Origin: Candidatus Bathycorpusculum sp.
Lineage (GTDB): Archaea; Thermoproteota; Bathyarchaeia; Bathyarchaeales; Bathycorpusculaceae
Direction: 5' to 3'
DNA length: 11,917 nucleotides
NCBI GenBank assembly: GCA_009779045.1
Contig: WREZ01000021.1
Span: 1-11,917, forward strand
The position numbers and the translations under genes are program-made. A model generated the notes under the pieces. It did no database searches and was not told the DNA's origin. It saw only the letters and a program-made list of their open reading frames with translations. Positions 2,221-11,359 of the stretch are shown in pieces; the first letter of the stretch is position 1; the number at the start of each line of letters is the position of its first letter.

Positions 2221-4824
2221 ATGAATTATACAAAATCTAAAAATATCGTTAAATTGCTTGCAGTATTACTAATGCTGTCTTTTATAATATCTATGATTGC
2301 AGTGCCAAGCGCAAACGCACAAACTTATAGAGAATCTTATCCATTCGTTGAACCTGTTCCACGAACAGTCGGTGTTGGACAAGCTGCTCTAATTAACTTT
2401 GGTCTACTAAACTTCGTAGCTCTTGGAAGCGGTTGGAACATGACTTTAACAATTATTGATCCCGATGGTAAAGTTGAAACATTTGATAGAATGACATGGT
2501 CTACAGGTACAGTCGGACTGCACTATACACCAACAAAAGCTGGTAACTATACATTGATTGCTAGCATGAAAGAACAACGCTACGGTGGTACAACTACTAA
2601 CCCAACTATGTATAAAGCATGTGAAAGTGAAAACGTTACTTTGCAAGTGTTAGAGGATTGGTATAAACCTTGGCATCCAGGTCACAGCATGCCAACAGAC
2701 TACTGGACAAGACCAGTTGATTCACAACTACGTGAATGGTACAGTCTTATGGGTAGCTGGCTTGCACCAAAACAACGCAATGGCAACATGTTTGCTCCAT
2801 ATAACGAGGCACCAACAACTGCACACATTCTATGGTCTACACCTGACATTCAATACACAGGCGGTTTAGCAGGCGGTGCCCTATACGAGGGTGGCTTCCA
2901 ACACGGTGATGCATATGAAAGCAAATTCTACAACGCCATCATAATTGCAGGTGTTTTATACTACAACGTAGCACCAGTCTACAGCGTTGGCTCTCAGGGC
3001 AAGAATCAAACAATCAGAGCACTAGACCTACACACAGGCAAAGAGCTTTGGACACGAGATATTTCAGCCTTTGGCACTCAGGCTAGACTTAGCCGAGGAC
3101 AAGTTCATATGTATATGACTGAAAACAACCGTGGCGCATGGGCATATCTCTGGGTACAAAATGGCGGCACTGGAACTACATGGTGGGCACTTGACCCTCT
3201 AACAGGCGAACACATGTACACAATGACTGGCTTTAATTCTCCTTCTGCTGGTGGCCTATCAGGCGGCACAAAAGTCTACTATGGTCCAAACGGTGAAATG
3301 CTAACATACTCAATATTTACTAATACAACTGGCGCTTACTTACGTCAACATAACTCTTCAATGGTCATTCAAAGAGGTACTGGTTCACTAAACAGCTGGG
3401 GTATGAAAGTTAACATTGTTTCTGCAACTAATCCATCTGGAATTAGTTCATTTAATGCAGCAACCCTTGCTTTTAGAACTAGCGATGATATCTTGTTGGC
3501 AAGAAACTTTGGTCAGTCTGGTGTAAACGGTGTAAACAGTAACCCAATGGGTAATCCTATACAAGTGTTCCCAGAGGATCGTGCTATCTTTGCTACCACT
3601 AACGCTAGCGGTATATATATGTCAGCAGTCAGCCTCGAAGAAGATAGTTGGGGCGCTAGATTATACACTGATAGATTCTGGAAAGCTCCTGAAAACTGGG
3701 AATCTATTACAGGCACTGTTACAGGTGATAGCAATGGTCAAACTGGTTGGGCATGTTTCTCTGATGATCCTTATGTAGGTGTTTTCTGGACAAAAGAAGA
3801 CAGAGTTAACCACGTTTTCAACTTAGACACAGGCAAACACATGTATGATACGCCCTCTCAATTCTTTGCAGATGGTTGGGGTGGAGTTCAATCAAACTCT
3901 GCACCAGAAAAAGTCATTGCATACGGCTGTCTGATTTCAGGAAGTGGTGGTGGTATTGTGTACTGCTATAACGTTTCAACAGGTGAACTACTTTGGACAT
4001 ACGAGGCAAAAGATCCATACATTGGCGAATCTTATCTTGTCGAAAACTGGTATGCTGTAATTTGCTTTGTTTCAGACGGTAAAGTCTACTTTGGTCACTC
4101 TGAACACTCTGCACAAGAGCCTAAGCCAAGAGGTGCACCATTCTATGCATTGGATATAGAGACTGGTGAGGTTGTTTGGAGAATTGATGGAGCATTCCGT
4201 CAGTTAGCTTGGGGTGGACGCGCAGTCATCGGCGATAGCATCATTGCAACAATAGATTCATATGACTCACAGATTTACGCAATCGGCAAAGGTCCAAGTG
4301 AGCTAACAGTTTCAGCACCTAACTATGCTGTCACAGCAGGTACAACCGCACTAATTACTGGCACAGTTATGGATATTTCACCAGGCACAAACAGTGATCG
4401 TTCACAACTACACTTCCCTAAGGGCGTTCCAGTAGCTTCTGATGAAACACAAAGCGAGTGGATGCTTCACGTCTACAAACAATTTGAAGCTCCAGCTGAA
4501 TTTAAGGGTGTTGAAGTTTCACTATATGCATGGGATGGACAATCTTCAGAATCAGTACCAATCGGCACAACGACAACTGACATATACGGTAAATTTGCAA
4601 TAGAATGGACACCAACCAAAGCAGGTCAGTATGAAATCTTTGCATTCTTTGACGGCAGCGGCGCATACTACTCTAGTGAAGCAACAGCTGCAACATACGT
4701 ATCAGCAGCACCAGAAGTAGTAGAAGTTGAAACTCCACCATATGAATGGTACATCGTTGGCGCAGCAATTGCAATCATTGCAGTAGTCATCGTTATTGGC
4801 TTGTTGAATCTCAAAAAGAAATAA
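2221..4824 (+). CDS. Secreted PQQ-type beta-propeller/Ig-like surface protein, membrane-anchored
   Basis: An 867-residue exported protein. Residues 10-33 are a typical signal peptide ending in ANA, with probable cleavage after residue 33. An Ig-like segment (about 40-145) is followed by a propeller region (about 200-690). Five strand-turn motifs of the PQQ-repeat kind are visible: ALDLHTGKELW (267-277), ALDPLTGEHMY (323-333), NLDTGKHMY (534-542), YNVSTGELLW (583-592) and ALDIETGEVVW (643-653). A second Ig-like region (about 693-825) contains WTPTKAGQYEIFAFF, which echoes YTPTKAGNYTLIASM at 102-116. One helix (843-862) and the tail NLKKK anchor it with the propeller outside. Proteins of this architecture are frequent in Bathyarchaeia. 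There is no evidence that it binds PQQ or is an enzyme. A structural or binding role at the cell surface is inferred. It has its own promoter. Confidence 0.85.
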   Translation: MNYTKSKNIVKLLAVLLMLSFIISMIAVPSANAQTYRESYPFVEPVPRTVGVGQAALINFGLLNFVALGSGWNMTLTIIDPDGKVETFDRMTWSTGTVGLHYTPTKAGNYTLIASMKEQRYGGTTTNPTMYKACESENVTLQVLEDWYKPWHPGHSMPTDYWTRPVDSQLREWYSLMGSWLAPKQRNGNMFAPYNEAPTTAHILWSTPDIQYTGGLAGGALYEGGFQHGDAYESKFYNAIIIAGVLYYNVAPVYSVGSQGKNQTIRALDLHTGKELWTRDISAFGTQARLSRGQVHMYMTENNRGAWAYLWVQNGGTGTTWWALDPLTGEHMYTMTGFNSPSAGGLSGGTKVYYGPNGEMLTYSIFTNTTGAYLRQHNSSMVIQRGTGSLNSWGMKVNIVSATNPSGISSFNAATLAFRTSDDILLARNFGQSGVNGVNSNPMGNPIQVFPEDRAIFATTNASGIYMSAVSLEEDSWGARLYTDRFWKAPENWESITGTVTGDSNGQTGWACFSDDPYVGVFWTKEDRVNHVFNLDTGKHMYDTPSQFFADGWGGVQSNSAPEKVIAYGCLISGSGGGIVYCYNVSTGELLWTYEAKDPYIGESYLVENWYAVICFVSDGKVYFGHSEHSAQEPKPRGAPFYALDIETGEVVWRIDGAFRQLAWGGRAVIGDSIIATIDSYDSQIYAIGKGPSELTVSAPNYAVTAGTTALITGTVMDISPGTNSDRSQLHFPKGVPVASDETQSEWMLHVYKQFEAPAEFKGVEVSLYAWDGQSSESVPIGTTTTDIYGKFAIEWTPTKAGQYEIFAFFDGSGAYYSSEATAATYVSAAPEVVEVETPPYEWYIVGAAIAIIAVVIVIGLLNLKKK

Positions 4825-4876: not shown

Positions 4877-4975
4877 ACAAGCGTATTTTGTTTAGACGTT
4901 TGTGAAGTCAGAAAATAGTAGTAGTTATTTTTTAGCCAAATAGACAAGCTTAAAACGTAACATGGCTGTCAATTA

Positions 4976-5130
4976 TGGTTGTATGGTTTTTTTGAAGTGT
5001 TGTGGTTATTTGTGGTGTGTGTTTTTTTGTGTGTTTGTGGGTGGTTTTGTTGTTTGTTGTTTTATGGTTTTTCTTTTGTGGGGGTTTTGGTGTTCTGTTA
5101 ATATGGTTAATGTTTTGTGTTGTTTTTTTT
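4976..5130 (+). other. Extreme G/T-rich tract upstream of the uS12 promoter
   Basis: This gene-free stretch is nearly all G and T on the plus strand: I count 56 of 60 bases in 5041-5100. A 70-codon frame (4962-5174) crosses it, but the product is a Cys/Phe/Val-rich string expected from G/T-only DNA, it has no Shine-Dalgarno, and it overlaps the uS12 TATA box. I treat it as non-coding. It may have a topological or promoter-insulating role, but nothing in the sequence proves one. Confidence 0.5.
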
Positions 5131-5137
5131 CGGTTAA

Positions 5138-5191: not shown

Positions 5192-5632
5192 ATGGGTTCC
5201 AAGTCTCCAAGAGGCGAATTTGCCGCAAGGCAATTGGCAAAGAAACGGAAGAATTTCCGTTGGCATGATCGTTACTTTAACAGGCGTATGCTTATGCTAG
5301 ATGAAAAAGTTGACCCTATGCAGGGTGCACCCCAATCTAGGGGTATTGTTCTAGAAAAAGTAGGTGTCGAATCAAAGCAGCCTAACAGCGCCGTTAGAAA
5401 ATGTGTCCGTACGCAACTTATTAAAAATGGTCGAACAATCACTGCTTTCTTACCAGGTGACGGTGCGCTTAACGTTATCGATGAACATGATGAAGTCGTC
5501 GTTGAGGGTATTGGTGGTACAAGAGGTGGTGCTATGGGAGACATTCCCGGTGTACGCTGGAAAGTAGTAATGGTAAACGGCGTATCCTTAAACGAGCTAG
5601 TTTACGGGCGAAAACAAAAACCATCAAGGTAA
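5192..5632 (+). CDS. rps12: 30S ribosomal protein uS12 (archaeal S12)
   Basis: A protein of the small-subunit decoding centre. The 146-residue length, the N-terminal [14 protein letters not shown] segment and the core [18 protein letters not shown] (residues 63-80) identify the archaeal/eukaryotic form. The conserved [15 protein letters not shown] and [18 protein letters not shown] blocks are intact, so the protein looks complete and functional. It is the first gene of a two-gene operon: uS7 starts five bases after its stop. In many archaea the same string continues with the EF-2 and EF-1A genes, but here a convergent GTPase gene follows. Of the first 60 codons 34 end in G or T, a mixed wobble usage that shifts to almost only A/C in uS7. 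Confidence 0.97.
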
Positions 5633-5637
5633 TACTT

Positions 5638-6231
5638 ATGAGTACACAAACAATCACAGCCCAATCTCAAGAAATCAAACTTTTCCAAAAATGGTCATTT
5701 AAAGAAATAACCGTAAGAGACATTGGACTGCAACGTTACCTAAACTTAGTTCCAATGGTTGCCCCCCACAGCATGGGACGCCATGAACACCAAAGATTCC
5801 GCAAAGCAAAAGTAAACATTGTCGAACGCTTAATCAACGGCTTAATGCGCAGCGGCAAAAACAGCGGCAAAAAAGCCAAAGCAGCAAACATTGTAAAAGA
5901 AACATTCGAAATCATAAACGTAAAAACAGGCAAAAACCCCATAGAAGTCCTCGTCAAAGCCGTAGAAAACTCTTCACCCTGTGAAGACACAACAAGAATC
6001 AGCTACGGCGGAGTCGTCTACCACTTATCCGTCGACGTCGCACCACAACGAAGAATCGACCTAGCCATACGCCACATCACCGCAGGCGCAAGAAACGCAT
6101 CACTAAACAACCCCCGCAGCATACAAGAAACACTAGCAGACGAACTCATACTAGCCGCAAACAAAGACATCAAAAGCGCAGCAGTCGCAAAACGCAACGA
6201 AATCGAACGCGTCGCACAAAGCAGCAGATAA
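5638..6231 (+). CDS. rps7: 30S ribosomal protein uS7 (archaeal S7)
   Basis: A protein that nucleates assembly of the 30S head and contacts the E and P sites. It has 197 residues with the archaeal N-terminal extension. The conserved MGRHEHQRFRKAKVNIVERL (46-65), the NPIEVLVKAVENSSP segment (100-114) and the C-terminal RRIDLAIRHITAGARNASLN (138-157) are present. It follows uS12 after a five-base gap, and an AAGGT Shine-Dalgarno overlaps the uS12 stop, so the two are co-transcribed and probably translationally coupled. Wobble usage is extraordinary: codons 86-197 contain only two G/T-ending codons (TCT112, TGT115), and codons 116-197 contain none. The protein sequence is normal, so this affects DNA composition only. 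Confidence 0.97.
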   Translation: MSTQTITAQSQEIKLFQKWSFKEITVRDIGLQRYLNLVPMVAPHSMGRHEHQRFRKAKVNIVERLINGLMRSGKNSGKKAKAANIVKETFEIINVKTGKNPIEVLVKAVENSSPCEDTTRISYGGVVYHLSVDVAPQRRIDLAIRHITAGARNASLNNPRSIQETLADELILAANKDIKSAAVAKRNEIERVAQSSR

Positions 6232-6271
6232 AACAACAACTCTTTTCCCCATATATTATATCACAAACTAC

Positions 6272-6298
6272 CTTTTTCTTGTTTCTCTTAAAAAATAT
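6272..6298. terminator. Convergent T-tracts between uS7 and the GTPase gene
   Basis: On the plus strand a T-rich tract (6272-6288) lies about 40 bases after the uS7 stop. On the minus strand a T6 run (read from about 6298 to 6288) lies about 35 bases after the GTPase stop. Both fit archaeal U-tract termination. There is no strong hairpin. Confidence 0.45.
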
Positions 6299-6332
6299 AA
6301 TTACCTTAATAATCTTAATAAATTAACTTTTT

Positions 6333-7520
6333 TTAACCCGATCTAGTGTGAATTTCCACTATATCCCCATCATCTAAGACAAAACTTAACCCAACTTTCT
6401 TTGGACTAAAAGGCAAACGTTTAGCCCAGACCATTGCAAATAAAAAGTTACTAATAAACTCTTTATGAATACTTTTCGCTAAATCACCTATGGTAGTCCC
6501 ACTCCTAAGTGCAAAAGGCCTACCAGTATCCATTTTTGAACCCGGCTCTTTAGTATATATACGTATAATACCTAAACTTTGAATTAAAGCCTTACCTAAC
6601 TCTTCCACACCCAACTTTTTCTCACACGACATAGGCACAATTAAAATTCTATTATTAACATGTTTTTTAAGCATCTGCAAATTTGCTAACGTCCCCGGCA
6701 AATCCGCTTTATTAGCCACAATCACCGCCGGCTTATACGTAGTAGTTTCAAAAATAGCATCCTCAACATCATCCAAAGACACCTCACCACTAATCCTTAC
6801 AATAGCATCATGAATTTTATAACCCCTCAACAATTGCTCCACCTCCCTTAAAGTACAATCAATCAATTTACCAACCAAAATAACCCGCAACGCCGTACCC
6901 GCATGCCGCCTCTCCACTTCCACACGACCATTAGGCTTCTTTACCAAAACCCTACTCTTCTCCAACTCAGAAATCACCAACTCAACCTGCCCCACAGGAT
7001 TATCTGCTAAATCAACCATCAAAATCACCCCATCAGCATTCCTAGCAACCCCCAAAGTCACCGGACCCCAAGCCCGACCATCACCACTGCCCTCCATAAC
7101 CGCTGGAGTTTCAACTAGTTGAAATTGAACATCCCCAAAATCCATAATACCTGGAACCGGCTGAGTCGTAGTATACTTTGTAGGCGAAACAACAACATTA
7201 GCCTTAGTAACCAACTGCAACAAACAACTCCTACCCACATTAGTAAGCCCCAAAATAGCCACCTGCGCCGACCCCTCCTTCTCAACAAATAACTTTGGAC
7301 CACCACTACTCTTACCCGTACCCTTACGCTTCTTATCCTCAAGATCCTCACGAATAATTGCAATCTTTCTTTTAATCTCTCCACGAAGCTTCAACGTACC
7401 CTTATGCTGCGGAACGTACTTTAGAAACTCTATCATTTTCTCCATTTTATCTCTTGGAGTATGGGCGGCTTCAACTTCTTCCCATTTATCAAGCGCCTCA
7501 GGTGGAAGATTTGTCGGCAT
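6333..7520 (-). CDS. Obg/DRG-like GTPase with C-terminal TGS domain, altered P-loop
   Basis: A translation-associated GTPase of the archaeal DRG/Obg-like group. Numbering is from the longest frame (Met at 7544). A helical N-terminal segment (about 10-85) precedes the G domain. The G1 loop is GLTNVGRS (99-106), with Arg105 where the family normally has Lys. The G3 position reads VETPA (144-148) instead of D-T-P-G. NKAD (278-281) is an intact G4 that specifies guanine. A TGS domain covers about 326-403, ending in LDDGDIVEIHTRSG. I chose Met9 (7520) because MPTNLPPEALDKW matches the usual start of such proteins as I remember it, and because a TATA-like string (7531-7540) would otherwise lie in the coding region. 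Met1 at 7544 remains possible. It converges on uS7 and diverges from asnS. DRG-type proteins bind ribosomes with a partner protein. Whether this one hydrolyses GTP normally is open. Its sense strand is G/T-rich throughout, unlike its neighbours' 3' ends. Confidence 0.85.
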   Translation of the reverse strand: MPTNLPPEALDKWEEVEAAHTPRDKMEKMIEFLKYVPQHKGTLKLRGEIKRKIAIIREDLEDKKRKGTGKSSGGPKLFVEKEGSAQVAILGLTNVGRSCLLQLVTKANVVVSPTKYTTTQPVPGIMDFGDVQFQLVETPAVMEGSGDGRAWGPVTLGVARNADGVILMVDLADNPVGQVELVISELEKSRVLVKKPNGRVEVERRHAGTALRVILVGKLIDCTLREVEQLLRGYKIHDAIVRISGEVSLDDVEDAIFETTTYKPAVIVANKADLPGTLANLQMLKKHVNNRILIVPMSCEKKLGVEELGKALIQSLGIIRIYTKEPGSKMDTGRPFALRSGTTIGDLAKSIHKEFISNFLFAMVWAKRLPFSPKKVGLSFVLDDGDIVEIHTRSG

Positions 7521-7599
7521 GTAAACTTCAGCAAAATATACCACAAGTCAACTTTAAGTCTATTTCGAATTCTATACCTGCTTTTCTATTTGTTCTACG

Positions 7600-7815: not shown

Positions 7816-7892
7816 GTGTTTGTTTGGTTGATTGTTTTATTGTGTGACAATAGGCATTTAGGTTACCTGTTGTTCTATTAAAAGAATGGTTG

Positions 7893-9185
7893 ATGCTTAC
7901 AATGACTTTAAAGAAAATAAGTGACGTCTTAGATGGGTGTTGTTTAGATCAAAAGGTTCAGGTTAGGGGTTGGGTTTATCGTAAACGTGAGGGTAAAGAG
8001 TTAATTTTTCTTGTTTTACGTGATTCTACAGGTGTTATTCAATGTACTGTAAAGAAGGCGTGTCTTGCTTGGGGTGAGGCTCAAAAATTAACTATAGAAT
8101 CTAGTTTATCTCTTGAGGGGGTTGTACATGAGGATAAGCGTGCTCCTGGTGGTTATGAAATTAGTGTAGAGGATCTTAATATTATTGGGTTAGCAGAAGT
8201 TTTTCCTATAGGGAAAGATAAAAGTGAAGAATTTATTCGTGATATGCGGCATCTTTGGTTGCGTAGTCGTAAAATGAATTTAGTTATGAAAGTTCGTAAT
8301 CAGGTTTTTGAGTCTGCCCGAGAATATTTTAACAGCCAAAAATACACGGAGGTTTCTCCACCTATGTTTATTTCTGCTGCTGTAGAGGGTGGTTCAACAC
8401 TTTTTGGCTTAAAATATTTTGACCAACAACTCTATTTAACCCAAAGTAGCCAGCTTTATCTTGAAATTCTCATGTATTCTCTAGAAAAAGTTTACTGCAT
8501 TGCCCCCTCATTTAGAGCTGAAAAAAGCAGAACCATTCGTCATTTAACTGAATATTGGCACATGGAGGGTGAGTGGCCCTTTGCTGACATGAATGAGCTT
8601 ATGGCTTTTGAAGAAGGGTTAATGACTCATATATGTCAAAGCGTTAGTGAGAAATGTGAAAAAGAATTCGCTGAACTAGGCGCTGATATAAATAAGCTAA
8701 AGACAGTTAAAGCTCCTTTTCCAAGAATTACTTATAAAGAGGCTATTGAACGCTTAAAACCAAAAAACCCCGCGTTAGACTGGGGTGCAGACTTAGGATA
8801 TGAAGACGAAAAAGTATTAGCAGAAGAATTTGGCCAACCCTTCTTTGTGTATGATTACCCCACAGAAATCAAAGCTTTCTACTGCAAAACCTATCCAGAC
8901 CATCCTGAAATAGCTATGAGTGTAGACATGATGGTTCCAAGAATCGGAGAAATCAGCACCGGCGGTGCAAGAGAAGACAACAAAGACACTCTAACACAAC
9001 GAATGAAAGCCCAAGGCCTAAACCCCGAAGACTACGAATGGTACATAGACCTAAGACGCTACGGAACAGTCCCACACGCCGGCTTTGGCATGGGCGTAGA
9101 ACGACTCATCGTCTGGCTGCTAGACCTAGACAACATAATAGACGCCATACCATTCCCAAGAACCACAAGACGATTCTACCCCTAA
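7893..9185 (+). CDS. asnS: Asparaginyl-tRNA synthetase (class IIb)
   Basis: It charges tRNA-Asn with asparagine in the cytoplasm. Numbering is from the TTG at 7890. An N-terminal OB-fold anticodon-binding domain (about 22-105) carries VQVRGWVYRKREGKELIFLVLRD. The class II catalytic domain shows motif 1 around YTEVSPPMF (152-160), motif 2 FRAEKSRTIRHLTEYWHME (208-226) and motif 3 GFGMGVERL (398-406). RHLTEYWHME, the YPTEIKAFY segment (323-331) and DLRRYGTVPHAGFG favour AsnRS over archaeal AspRS, whose motif 2 typically continues with RHLTEVTSID. The length, about 430, is normal for the family. Starts at ATG 7893, ATG 7902 or TTG 7890 are all possible and none has a clear Shine-Dalgarno. I use ATG 7893. 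Wobble usage changes along the gene: 44 of the first 60 codons end in G/T, against only 6 of the last 60. Confidence 0.9.
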   Translation: MLTMTLKKISDVLDGCCLDQKVQVRGWVYRKREGKELIFLVLRDSTGVIQCTVKKACLAWGEAQKLTIESSLSLEGVVHEDKRAPGGYEISVEDLNIIGLAEVFPIGKDKSEEFIRDMRHLWLRSRKMNLVMKVRNQVFESAREYFNSQKYTEVSPPMFISAAVEGGSTLFGLKYFDQQLYLTQSSQLYLEILMYSLEKVYCIAPSFRAEKSRTIRHLTEYWHMEGEWPFADMNELMAFEEGLMTHICQSVSEKCEKEFAELGADINKLKTVKAPFPRITYKEAIERLKPKNPALDWGADLGYEDEKVLAEEFGQPFFVYDYPTEIKAFYCKTYPDHPEIAMSVDMMVPRIGEISTGGAREDNKDTLTQRMKAQGLNPEDYEWYIDLRRYGTVPHAGFGMGVERLIVWLLDLDNIIDAIPFPRTTRRFYP

Positions 9186-9198
9186 CACCCCTCTTGCT

Positions 9199-9215
9199 AT
9201 TTTTGTTATAAAAAT
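9199..9215. terminator. Weak hairpin between convergent asnS and rnhA
   Basis: ATTTTT (9199-9204) and AAAAAT (9210-9215) form a 6-bp A/T stem in the 57-base gap between the two convergent genes. It could act in both directions. The plus-strand composition switches from A/C-rich to G/T-rich just here. Confidence 0.35.
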
Positions 9216-9242
9216 TTGTAAATATACCTGTAAAGTTTGTTG

Positions 9243-9659
9243 TCAAGTTCTTTGTTGTTGGTCTAAGGTTTTGTTTACTAGAGTGTCGGCTTTTTGTATA
9301 AAGTTGTTGCTTCTGGCGACATTGTAGAATTCTGCTTTTTTGAATTGTACTCGTATAGCGTGTGCTTTAAGGTATAATTTGCGTAGTTCCAAATTTTTTA
9401 CGCTGTATTCTCCTTTCATTTGTCGACCTACAAGTTCACTATCTAAGTAGCAGATTACTTCTTCTGCGCCACTGTTTAAGGCATATTCTAAACCCATGGT
9501 TAAGGCTTCATACTCTGCCTGATTGTTAGTACGTATGCCTAAGAATCGTGAATCTGTTTTTATAATTTCAGTGTTTTCCATTGCTAAAAAAGCTGCTGCG
9601 GATGGTCCAGGATTCCCTCTTGCGCCGCCATCTGAATAAATTACTAATCGCTTAACCAT
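9243..9659 (-). CDS. rnhA: Ribonuclease HI, archaeal type
   Basis: It cuts RNA in RNA-DNA hybrids such as primers and R-loops. The 138-residue protein is one RNase H fold. The acidic active site is visible: Asp10 in YSDGGARGNPGP, Glu49 in TNNQAEYEAL, Asp73 in YLDSELV and Asp125 in KADTLVN. The loop before the last Asp reads NVARSNN, where relatives I remember have His-Val-Pro-Arg, so the helper His may be Asn113. I could not align this formally. The ATG at 9659 has only a weak Shine-Dalgarno. It converges with asnS and is divergent from the acetaldehyde dehydrogenase gene. The last 19 codons before the stop (from Phe120) have 16 ending in A/C on the sense strand, so it too ends in the A/C phase. 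Confidence 0.88.
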   Translation of the reverse strand: MVKRLVIYSDGGARGNPGPSAAAFLAMENTEIIKTDSRFLGIRTNNQAEYEALTMGLEYALNSGAEEVICYLDSELVGRQMKGEYSVKNLELRKLYLKAHAIRVQFKKAEFYNVARSNNFIQKADTLVNKTLDQQQRT

Positions 9660-9832: not shown

Positions 9833-11359
9833 TTGACTTATTTGTGGAGCGTGTTTGAACTGACAAAAATTGCTAAAGAAGCTGTAGTGTTGGGGAAGGG
9901 TGGGATTTGTGGTGTTGTGTCTAATGTTGAGAAGGGTGATGTGGGGTGTGTGTCAGATGTTGAGGCTAAATTGTTAGATGCAAAGGTTGCGCGTGTTAGG
10001 GCGGCGCAGGAGGTTTTTGCGTGTTTTTCTCAGAAGGCTGTGGATAAGATTTTTTCTGCGGCTGCAAAGGCTGCGTCTGAGCAGAGTCTTTTTCTTGCAG
10101 AGTTAGCAGTTAAGGAGACAGGTATGGGTGTGGTTGAGGATAAGTTTGTTAAGAATCTTTTTGCGTCGGAGGAGATTTATAGGTGTTATAGACGTGCTAA
10201 GACTTGTGGGGTTGTGCGGGAGGATAAGTATGGTAATGCAGAATTTGCGGCTCCTATAGGTGTTATTGCAGCTATAATTCCAACGACTAATCCAACTTCT
10301 ACGGCAGTGTTTAAGGCGTTGCTTGCACTTAAGACGCGTAATGGTATGATTTTTAGTCCTCATCCACGTGCTAGGGAGTGTACTATTGCGGCAGTTAGAA
10401 CTGTTCTTGAGGCTGCGGTTAAGGCTGGAGCACCTGAGGGAATTTTTGATTGGTTAGATGCACCCAGTCTGCCTCTTATTAATGCTCTTATGGAACGTGC
10501 AAGTGTTACTCTTGCGACTGGTGGTCCGGGGATGGTAAAAGCTGCGTATTCTAGTGGTAAACCTGCTATTGGTGTGGGTTCAGGAAATACACCTGCTGTT
10601 ATTGATGATACTGCTGATATTGCTTTAGCTGTTAGGTCAATTATTGAGTCTAAAATTTTTGATAATGGTATGATTTGTGCCTCTGAACAGGCAGCTATCG
10701 TTTTAGACAGTATTTATGATAAAGTGAAAGCTGAGTTTATCGAAAGTGATTGTCATTTTCTAACCTCTGATGAAATGATTTTAGTTAAGGAAAAACTTGT
10801 TGTAAATGGAGCGTTAAACCCTGTTATAGTTGGCCAGTCAGCTGAAACCATCGCAAAAATGGCCGGTGTAACTGCTGTTAATGAGTGTACAAAAATTCTT
10901 ATAGCCGAAGTGGTCAGCACAGATTTTTCTGTGGAGCCTTTTGCGTGTGAAAAGCTCTCCCCTGTGCTTGCTATGTATAGAGTAAAAACTTTTGAAGAAG
11001 CTCTTGATAAAGCCTCAAAGTTAATTGAAGCCGGCGGTTTAGGCCATACTTCTTCAATATACACAACTGATGCATCAAAAATAAAAGAGTTTGCCGATAG
11101 AATGAAAACCTGCAGAGTTTTAGTAAACACCCCCGCATCTCAAGGCGCCATAGGCGGCATTTACAATAAACTTACCGCGTCCTTAACACTTGGATGCGGC
11201 TTCTTTGGCGGTAATTCCGTAGCTGGAAACATAGGACCAAAACATTTGCTAAATATAAAACAACTTTCCCTACCTGACATAACGGTAAGCCAAAAACGAA
11301 ATAATCCCAAACCCCTAAGAAAAAGAAATATGGATACAAAGACACCAGACGAAAAGTAA
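9833..11359 (+). CDS. CoA-acylating acetaldehyde dehydrogenase, AdhE N-domain type, stand-alone
   Basis: It interconverts acetyl-CoA and acetaldehyde with NAD(H) and CoA (EC 1.2.1.10 type). It aligns by eye with the N-terminal half of bifunctional AdhE: ESGMG-like KETGMGVVEDKFVKN (94-108), IPTTNPTSTAVFKALLALKTRN (149-170), ATGGPGMVKAAYSSGKPAIGVG (228-249), and the catalytic Cys282 in DNGMICASEQ. NTPASQGAIGG (432-442) and GCGFFGGNS close the fold. A basic tail (about 475-508) is followed by a stop, and no iron alcohol dehydrogenase domain follows, so ethanol formation would need another enzyme. The start is uncertain: TTG 9833 and GTG 9851 are in frame, both with poorly spaced Shine-Dalgarno-like bases, and the TATA spacing favours GTG 9851. 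It is followed by a class II aldolase gene. Wobble usage falls from 55 of 60 G/T-ending codons (19-78) to 19 of 60 at the 3' end. Confidence 0.88.
   Translation: MTYLWSVFELTKIAKEAVVLGKGGICGVVSNVEKGDVGCVSDVEAKLLDAKVARVRAAQEVFACFSQKAVDKIFSAAAKAASEQSLFLAELAVKETGMGVVEDKFVKNLFASEEIYRCYRRAKTCGVVREDKYGNAEFAAPIGVIAAIIPTTNPTSTAVFKALLALKTRNGMIFSPHPRARECTIAAVRTVLEAAVKAGAPEGIFDWLDAPSLPLINALMERASVTLATGGPGMVKAAYSSGKPAIGVGSGNTPAVIDDTADIALAVRSIIESKIFDNGMICASEQAAIVLDSIYDKVKAEFIESDCHFLTSDEMILVKEKLVVNGALNPVIVGQSAETIAKMAGVTAVNECTKILIAEVVSTDFSVEPFACEKLSPVLAMYRVKTFEEALDKASKLIEAGGLGHTSSIYTTDASKIKEFADRMKTCRVLVNTPASQGAIGGIYNKLTASLTLGCGFFGGNSVAGNIGPKHLLNIKQLSLPDITVSQKRNNPKPLRKRNMDTKTPDEK

Follow-up and report, generated by a model that had tools for sequence, protein, structure and literature searches.

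Kilobase-scale amino/keto strand tracts in a Candidatus Bathycorpusculum genome, the A- or C-ending codon run of uS7 being one among many

Results

Genes and composition around uS7

The window, that is, the whole 11,917-nt stretch of Candidatus Bathycorpusculum sp. contig WREZ01000021.1 (assembly GCA_009779045.1), carries the genes and composition features collected in Table 1. The region coding for a PQQ-repeat protein (positions 2221–4824) is without strong amino (A/C) or keto (G/T) tracts. This region has many matching places in several genus relatives and belongs to a large multi-copy family. A Pfam search with the 570-codon open reading frame (ORF) at 259–1971 gave no match, and neither did tRNA and Rfam scans across the window. 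The start of the aldehyde dehydrogenase gene was placed at 10124 by our greedy longest-ORF script, versus 9833 in the ORF list of the window.

Table 1 Features of the window, with coordinates on the analyzed stretch
Feature	Position	Strand	Basis or description
Intergenic keto stretch, 5' of the TATA-like sequence preceding uS12	4960..5135	+	A 15, C 6, G 53, T 102
uS12 gene	5192..5632	+	PF00164; immediately 5' of uS7
Amino (A/C) tract: end of uS12, uS7, antisense of DRG-like GTPase	5601..7400	+	A+C 0.56–0.76 per 100 bp, all bases
uS7 gene	5638..6231	+	PF00177 match; 197 codons plus TAA
uS7 codons 86–197, 110/112 A- or C-ending	5893..6228	+	Recount and simulation
DRG-like GTPase gene	6333..7544	-	MMR_HSR1 and TGS domains (Pfam)
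Class II tRNA synthetase gene (called AsnRS)	7890..9185	+	Pfam; wobble A/C 0.30 to 0.90, 5' to 3'
Sharp A/C-to-G/T switch where the synthetase and RNase HI-like genes converge	9186..9242	+	Composition profile
RNase HI-like gene	9243..9659	-	Pfam RNase H-type; own-strand wobble A/C 0.62 to 0.89, 5' to 3'
Aldehyde dehydrogenase family gene	9833..11359	+	Pfam; wobble A/C 0.12–0.20 in first 280 codons, 0.68 at end

A first-pass annotation had drawn attention to the A- or C-ending codons of uS7, and our recount agrees with it: among codons 86–197, only TCT112 and TGT115 end in G or T (2/112), and none of codons 116–197 does (0/82). These last 82 codons use sixteen amino acids, Met and Trp being absent. 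When synonymous codons were drawn at random according to genome-wide usage (138,727 codons), 39.4 ± 4.4 G/T endings were expected in this stretch and the observed zero had a log10 P of -24.1; codon usage taken from the C14 contig's ribosomal cluster (2,662 codons) gave 31.7 ± 4.3 and -18.0. These P values assume independent sites; they establish the reality of the local tract and do not imply that uS7 is unique.

The annotation had also argued that neither A/T bias, G/C bias, nor selection on the protein accounts for the run, which we uphold, as we do its reading of an amino-base preference on one strand. Its account is incomplete in that the bias extends beyond uS7. The A/C tract of the plus strand runs on through the oppositely oriented GTPase gene, in which own-strand wobble A/C is just 0.05–0.40 per 40 codons (strongly keto, hence amino on the plus strand). 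In uS12, which is separated from uS7 by 5 bp, wobble A/C by quarters is 0.39, 0.51, and 0.42, then 0.68 in the last. The intergenic keto stretch has G or T at 155 of its 176 bases, and A+C drops from 0.66 (9101–9200) to 0.31 (9201–9300) at the switch between the synthetase and RNase HI-like genes.

Strand-wise tracts across the source genome

We read 504 kb of the 1.375-Mb source metagenome-assembled genome (MAG), hereafter G000, comprising the window and 40 other contigs. Genes were called with the greedy script, by which some starts and a few genes are wrong, and 452 ORFs of at least 90 codons were kept. In 40-codon blocks, the variance of wobble A/C was 2.69 times binomial, with a lag-1 correlation of 0.82. 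The overall longest runs (113 A/C-ending and 119 G/T-ending codons) are both found in transposases. With three transposases set aside, the longest A/C-ending runs in the remaining 449 genes comprised 84, 83, 82 (uS7, ranking third), 64, 62, and 61 codons; for G/T endings, the longest run had 62 codons. Runs of at least 40 codons occurred in 15 genes for A/C and in 4 for G/T. G000 has many strand-wise amino/keto tracts, and the uS7 run belongs to one of them.

The amino or keto excess takes the form of strand-wise tracts of about 1 kb that cross gene borders. With wobble deviation expressed in strand coordinates across 21 contigs, tandem neighbors less than 300 bp apart were correlated at r = 0.67; at 300–600 bp, the correlation was 0.39 for convergent and 0.22 for divergent neighbors, and it was near zero from 1.2 kb. 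For G007, a relative from the same genus, the values at 300–600 bp were 0.10 (convergent) and -0.24 (divergent).

The preference had been described as lying at wobble positions. The wobble is shifted, but codon positions 1 and 2, the choice between CTN and TTR for Leu, and the adjoining intergenic DNA share its sign. From wobble-keto to wobble-amino blocks, A/C goes from 0.394 to 0.586 at codon position 1 and from 0.475 to 0.581 at position 2, and the CTN share of Leu codons goes from 0.36 to 0.78. Wobble composition also correlated with that of the neighboring 60 bp of intergenic DNA, at r = 0.61 (n = 428), versus 0.35 in G007 (n = 404). Since these sites shift along, the effect is not only one on codons, and this shows that the tract-forming process acts on DNA, beyond codon choice alone.

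In the chromosomal genes of G000, the log-odds shift was 3.39 for C:T and 3.79 for A:G; the corresponding pairs in five further genomes were 2.42/3.04, 2.98/3.25, 3.57/3.38, 1.65/1.66, and 1.16/1.46. Purine and pyrimidine sites in these genes are affected alike, as expected of EndoMS-biased repair. The mean wobble keto fraction of the G000 coding strand was 0.487.

Shape of the tracts along the chromosome

Sharp switches on the plus strand of G000 ran from A/C to G/T in 55 cases and in the reverse direction in 25. Of the former, 27/55 had a gene 3' end no more than 100 bp away (background 16%); of the latter, 11/25 were near gene 5' ends (background 17%). The differences between adjacent windows had a skewness of 0.16–0.37 depending on window width, and of 0.33 in the switch analysis. 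Elsewhere, upward and downward switches numbered 13/13 in G020, 6/3 in G001, 5/5 in G008, and 2/0 in G010, and the skewness was small in G020 (0.08) and G001 (0.09). A sawtooth is established for G000 alone. The switches of G007 show the same association with 3' and 5' ends (16/30 and 17/25), which a plain coding-strand preference for A/C (mean 0.64) would yield as well.

Over the 200 complete genes of G000, mean wobble A/C by decile rose from 0.474 to 0.579 toward the 3' end, and the last 30% exceeded the first 30% in 122 of them. This rise was greatest before a convergent neighbor (0.45 to 0.67, n = 31). The profiles seen around gene borders are much alike. A model in which transcription makes 5' ends keto and 3' ends amino fitted the window; it was rejected, as the gradient over the 200 complete genes is small and the border profiles hardly differ. 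On contig C15, a gene that does not encode a transposase (L046:9690–10910) has a strong amino-to-keto step, from 0.77 to 0.15.

uS7 and tracts in related genomes

Candidatus Bathycorpusculum occurs in termite guts, peat soils, sediments, and digesters, according to passages of PMC10684969. Genomes G001–G024 are from the same genus as G000. The uS7 locus was readable in 30 of the 38 matching genomes, the reading strand being set by the protein match. The last 82 codons contain 0–31 G/T endings in 24 genus genomes and 15–42 in 6 genomes of other families; within the genus (24/24), the wobble bases do not follow the random pattern that would have spoken against the first-pass annotation. Ribosomal-cluster genes have wobble A/C mostly above 0.5 in both G000 and G007, and the G000 cluster leads to an expected 0.61 for uS7. 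The uS7 bias comes partly from this genus-wide A/C-ending preference of ribosomal genes.

The GC-richer G007 (L066, L058, L059) has A/C-ending runs of up to 118 codons despite weak cross-gene strand tracts, with an overall coding-strand wobble A/C of 0.64.

The lag-1 correlation of wobble A/C was 0.70–0.84 in G000, G020, G001, G008, G010, and G002, the last three being samples of 49, 37, and 15 kb and most samples from other genomes being small. It was 0.62 in G005, 0.52 in G007, and 0.39 in G036. Beyond the genus, small samples gave 0.64 for G027 and 0.56 for G037, with low values for others. In other families of the order, likewise from small samples, we observed 0.90 in 3 genes of G030 (L097) and 0.67 in 7 genes of G032 (L099). 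With some outside values high, exclusivity of the chromosomal tracts to the genus is not established.

The tract signs of the window genes are conserved in part among genus relatives. For the GTPase gene, the sign is keto in G000, G020, G008, and G005 and intermediate in G001 and G017, with G006 and G012 about even. A strong gradient along the synthetase gene is seen in G000 and a weaker one in G020 and G001; in G005, G017, G006, and G012 it is flat or falling.

Amino-to-keto steps in insertion sequences

The bias is strongest in DDE- and IS110-type insertion sequences, the coding strand of which is, at the wobble position, nearly A/C-only in the 5' half and G/T-only in the 3' half. We define the step as wobble A/C of the 5' part minus that of the 3' part, so that amino 5' and keto 3' gives a positive value. 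Three DDE transposases of G000 have steps of 0.93, 0.93, and 0.88, ranking 1 to 3 in the genus sample, which comprises 1,037 complete genes of 150 codons or more; a fourth G000 gene above 0.4 (step 0.62) was judged from the start of its sequence not to encode a transposase. For the first DDE transposase, wobble A/C in 12 equal parts is 1.0, 0.98, 1.0, 0.98, 0.9, 0.54, 0.44, 0.02, 0.1, 0.05, 0, and 0. This amino-then-keto order opposes the mean order of host genes.

At four-fold sites, the three G000 transposases have A 119, C 104, T 5, and G 4 in their 5' parts and T 127, G 95, A 11, and C 3 in their 3' parts. Protein composition was also compared: Asn, Lys, Thr, Pro, His, and Gln account for 0.44 of the residues 5' and 0.21 of those 3' in G000, versus 0.20–0.24 and 0.27–0.31 in four bacterial copies. 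On contig C32 (L164:6600–9840), terminal motifs indicate a DDE insertion sequence, the one with the first transposase, nested in another, each keeping its own A/C-to-G/T pattern.

At 198 conserved four-fold sites compared between G000 and two other genus copies, we counted 63 within-class differences (A–C or G–T), 6 transitions, and 6 between-class transversions. A transition/transversion argument against deamination was dropped, as strong transition pressure with background transversions would look alike; the 63 within-class versus 12 between-class differences are open to the same reading.

Counts for DDE_5 and IS110 were restricted to ORFs at the matches, out of 39 ORFs of which several are neighbors and not transposases. 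All seven DDE_5 ORFs of at least 350 codons have steps of 0.45–0.93, the remaining 5/12 loci being shorter or broken; G000 contributes three of the seven, including one that also enters the family count of the first transposase below. A full IS110 ORF of at least 300 codons was present at 8/29 loci, with steps of 0.79, 0.74, 0.73, 0.62, 0.36, 0.34, 0.19, and 0.03; seven of these eight copies thus have a step of at least 0.19, and copy L274 is flat. Two longer TnpB ORFs, both from G005, are without a step of that size; the IS110 copy of the same genome is at 0.36.

The flanks of the 25 ORFs with a step above 0.4 are neutral on average, with A/C at 0.48 (400–1000 bp before, 18 loci) and 0.51 (300–900 bp after, 20 loci). 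On average, the sign changes at fraction 0.34 of the ORF for IS110 (7 stepped copies) and at 0.51 for DDE_5 (7 copies). Element centers are predicted at about 0.40 (IS110) and 0.53 (DDE_5) from homology limits of about -255 to +19 around the ORF for IS110 pairs and -82 to +151 for DDE_5 pairs, a crude fit from few pairs, with one IS110 pair homologous further upstream. These positions weakly suggest that the sign change may be anchored at the element ends.

In other genera of the order, eight short loci yielded 12 ORFs, candidate transposases of which some are only putative, with steps of -0.41 to 0.31. In G041, from another genus of the same family (L308, L309), the ORFs at transposase matches are keto 5' and amino 3', with steps of -0.24 and -0.41.

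One transposase family in archaeal and bacterial hosts

The first DDE transposase had matches in 12 of 41 genomes, every one of this genus, and at 29 titled loci, mostly from bacterial MAGs, several of them from termite guts. The family set comprised 59 loci (L194–L252) with 22 distinct ORFs of at least 350 codons. Full-length genus copies all have steps of 0.51–0.93 (9/9) and full-length bacterial copies all lie between -0.05 and 0.12 (13/13); in shorter genus pieces, the halves agree with the step. The maximum-likelihood tree, in which rows L203 and L222 have very long branches, requires 5 host-label changes, at least 4 of them forced by well-supported branches; shuffled labels on the same tree need 7.2 on average. 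On this tree the genus copies are polyphyletic. As they are stepped nonetheless and their bacterial homologs are flat, the host seems to impose the step, and the cause seems to lie there. The title of one bacterial copy and that of one Bathycorpusculum fragment share the assembly label JGI24705J35276, an argument against an assembly artifact.

Transposases up to 65% identical were seen in bacterial MAGs (L224–L241, L245; Clostridiales, Spirochaetes, Deltaproteobacteria, and others), several from termite guts. As a side observation, this suggests transposon exchange between bacteria and these archaea.

Discussion

The best explanation, which we put forward tentatively and at somewhat less than an even chance, is that substitutions arise strand-asymmetrically where one DNA strand is synthesized or exposed, probably in break or gap repair, and that this acts over the ribosomal preference for A/C-ending codons. 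We infer this mechanism from sequence. Repeated one-strand synthesis or single-strand exposure during repair would generate the asymmetry. In an excised or cut transposon, repair copying inward from both flanks would make the 5' half of each strand new; in an equivalent geometry, 5' resection would leave the 3' halves single-stranded. If keto–keto mismatches (G–T, G–G, T–T) were removed and amino–amino mismatches survived, the new strand would gain A/C at purine and pyrimidine sites alike. Recurrent repair tracts on the chromosome would give weaker tracts, such as the one over uS7, atop the ribosomal preference. Given that transposases on separate branches are stepped in the genus only and that the element ends are mirrored, the process seems to be end-symmetric, with the strand told by distance from the end. 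Inward synthesis with a mismatch bias and resection with strand damage predict identical halves, and either may apply.

EndoMS/NucS, a non-canonical mismatch repair enzyme, offers a likeness in that its preferred substrates are keto–keto mismatches (G–T, G–G, T–T), with little action on A–C, as described in passages of PMC8228993, and its gene is present here. The NucS gene of G000 lies on contig C9 (E = 6.2e-27), and matches were found in 38 of the 41 genomes searched, G002, G008, and G040 giving none. G002 and G008, MAGs that are 88% and 80% complete, bear tracts without a NucS match. Loss of a repair gene was considered as the cause and rejected, NucS and UDG both being found in G000. Two properties of NucS count against the repair model: in vivo it corrects mainly transitions (parts of PMC8228993), and a passage of PMC12999951 describes it as a priori unable to act strand-specifically. 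The flat IS110 copy L274, the unstepped TnpB ORFs of G005, and the reversed ORFs of G041 also count against it, and the sharp A/C-to-G/T switches near gene 3' ends need further assumptions under break repair. The model accounts less well for the chromosomal pattern, to which transcription or origins may contribute. We found no reports of EndoMS/NucS leaving a strand asymmetry.

Translational selection would have the highly expressed ribosomal gene use A- and C-ending codons, which pair Watson–Crick with U34 and G34 tRNAs. We consider it unlikely, although the uS7 wobble is A/C-rich in all 24 genus genomes, the ribosomal clusters of G000 and G007 are mostly above 0.5, and G007 has both an A/C-rich coding strand (0.64) and A/C runs of up to 118 codons. 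Ribosomal usage predicts 31.7 G/T codons in the last 82 of uS7, where 0 are seen, and uS12, 5 bp upstream, stays at a wobble A/C of 0.39–0.51 over three quarters of its length. Furthermore, the shift is not confined to synonymous choice, as positions 1 and 2 and intergenic DNA move too, and other genes are pushed toward G/T endings.

Transcription-associated mutation is rather improbable. Here the non-template strand would turn G/T-rich in the bubble, and antisense transcription would give A/C-rich 3' ends; the sharp switches near gene 3' ends (27/55 versus a 16% background) and the climb of wobble A/C toward 3' ends, most before a convergent neighbor (0.45 to 0.67, n = 31), fit this idea. However, the mean coding-strand wobble keto of 0.487 leaves no net coding-strand sign, the sign is wrong in uS7, a gene presumably transcribed at a high level, and uS7 and the GTPase carry opposite coding-strand signs inside one plus-strand tract. 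In addition, the keto stretch at 4960–5135 sits upstream of the TATA-like sequence, and transposase genes show the reverse order.

Spontaneous deamination of single-stranded DNA (C to U, A to I), in the manner of the mitochondrial H strand, also has a rather low probability in our view. It is known from PMC1794132 to yield GT-rich and AC-rich strands with A/C-ending codons, and the expected A/C-ending codons on one strand with G/T on the other are indeed found here. If transposon ends were resected, the DNA left exposed would be precisely their keto-rich 3' halves. The three transposases have fewer C than A in their 3' parts (3 versus 11), with a somewhat larger shift of C:T than of A:G, and this excess leans back toward deamination. 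However, C deaminates much faster than A, and the chromosomal C:T and A:G shifts are about equal in six genomes, which favors mismatch handling over spontaneous deamination; G000 also encodes UDG. Vertebrate mitochondria, with their AC-rich L strand, resemble our case in having one A/C-rich and one G/T-rich strand and mainly A/C-ending codons. Passages of PMC1794132 describe one constant strand per molecule there, explained by exposure of the H strand in replication, whereas Bathycorpusculum has alternating tracts of about 1 kb and, on the chromosome, C:T and A:G shifts of nearly the same size.

A replication-strand asymmetry in which initiation sites are very numerous, the A/C-to-G/T switches being origins, is very unlikely. 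Human N-domains have a skew sawtooth with sharp upward jumps and gradual declines, tied to replication origins, and the sawtooth of G000 (skewness 0.16–0.37, 55 upward and 25 downward switches) is similar in shape; N-domains are far larger, the scale here being 1–3 kb. However, skewness is small in G020 (0.08) and G001 (0.09), G020 has 13 upward and 13 downward switches, and every transposon would require its own central origin. We know of no archaea that fire origins every few kilobases. The leading/lagging skew of bacteria is alike in that one strand is enriched in keto bases within genes as well as between them, but it extends over replichores, whereas here the sign alternates every 1–3 kb and the correlation is lost by about 1.2 kb. 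GT-rich strands are known from eubacterial replication bias (passages of PMC1794132), but replicon-scale skews are weak in archaea (passages of PMC12999951).

Selection on the composition of nascent RNA or DNA, for instance via termination, is highly improbable: the switches do lie near gene 3' ends, but archaea, to our knowledge, lack Rho, amino/keto is a different axis from purine/pyrimidine, and transposases on several tree branches are stepped in the genus and not in bacteria. Termination can select composition in bacteria, and the Rho-driven purine bias of bacterial genes, as presented in parts of PMC13323073, is likewise a strand-wise base-class bias with codon consequences; that bias is purine/pyrimidine, framed on the coding strand, and selected through Rho, whereas the present one is amino/keto, framed on the DNA strand, and archaeal.

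Searches of the literature for keto/amino skew, insertion-sequence skew, and transposon asymmetry found no report of the pattern in a set of articles with few subscription journals. The words skew and transposase are absent from the main text of two articles on termite-gut Bathyarchaeia (PMC10684969 and PMC7886697).

The genus shows nearly complete strand asymmetry at the kilobase scale, and the wider pattern hints at an undescribed strand-specific mutation process in an archaeal group with termite-gut members. For annotation, this means that gene finders based on codon usage and tests for gene transfer would misread such genes. It is quite conceivable, although less likely than not, that Candidatus Bathycorpusculum has an undescribed strand-resolved mutator, by which the strand made or exposed in recombinational repair would be rewritten along the amino/keto axis. 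Transposons residing in the genus would thereby become A/C-then-G/T on either strand, and the chromosome would keep a fossil map of recurrent repair tracts, the uS7 run being one. If one-strand repair synthesis is what the tracts record, they would provide a readable map of repair sites in archaea not yet cultured and would allow the influence of EndoMS/NucS on mutation to be tested.
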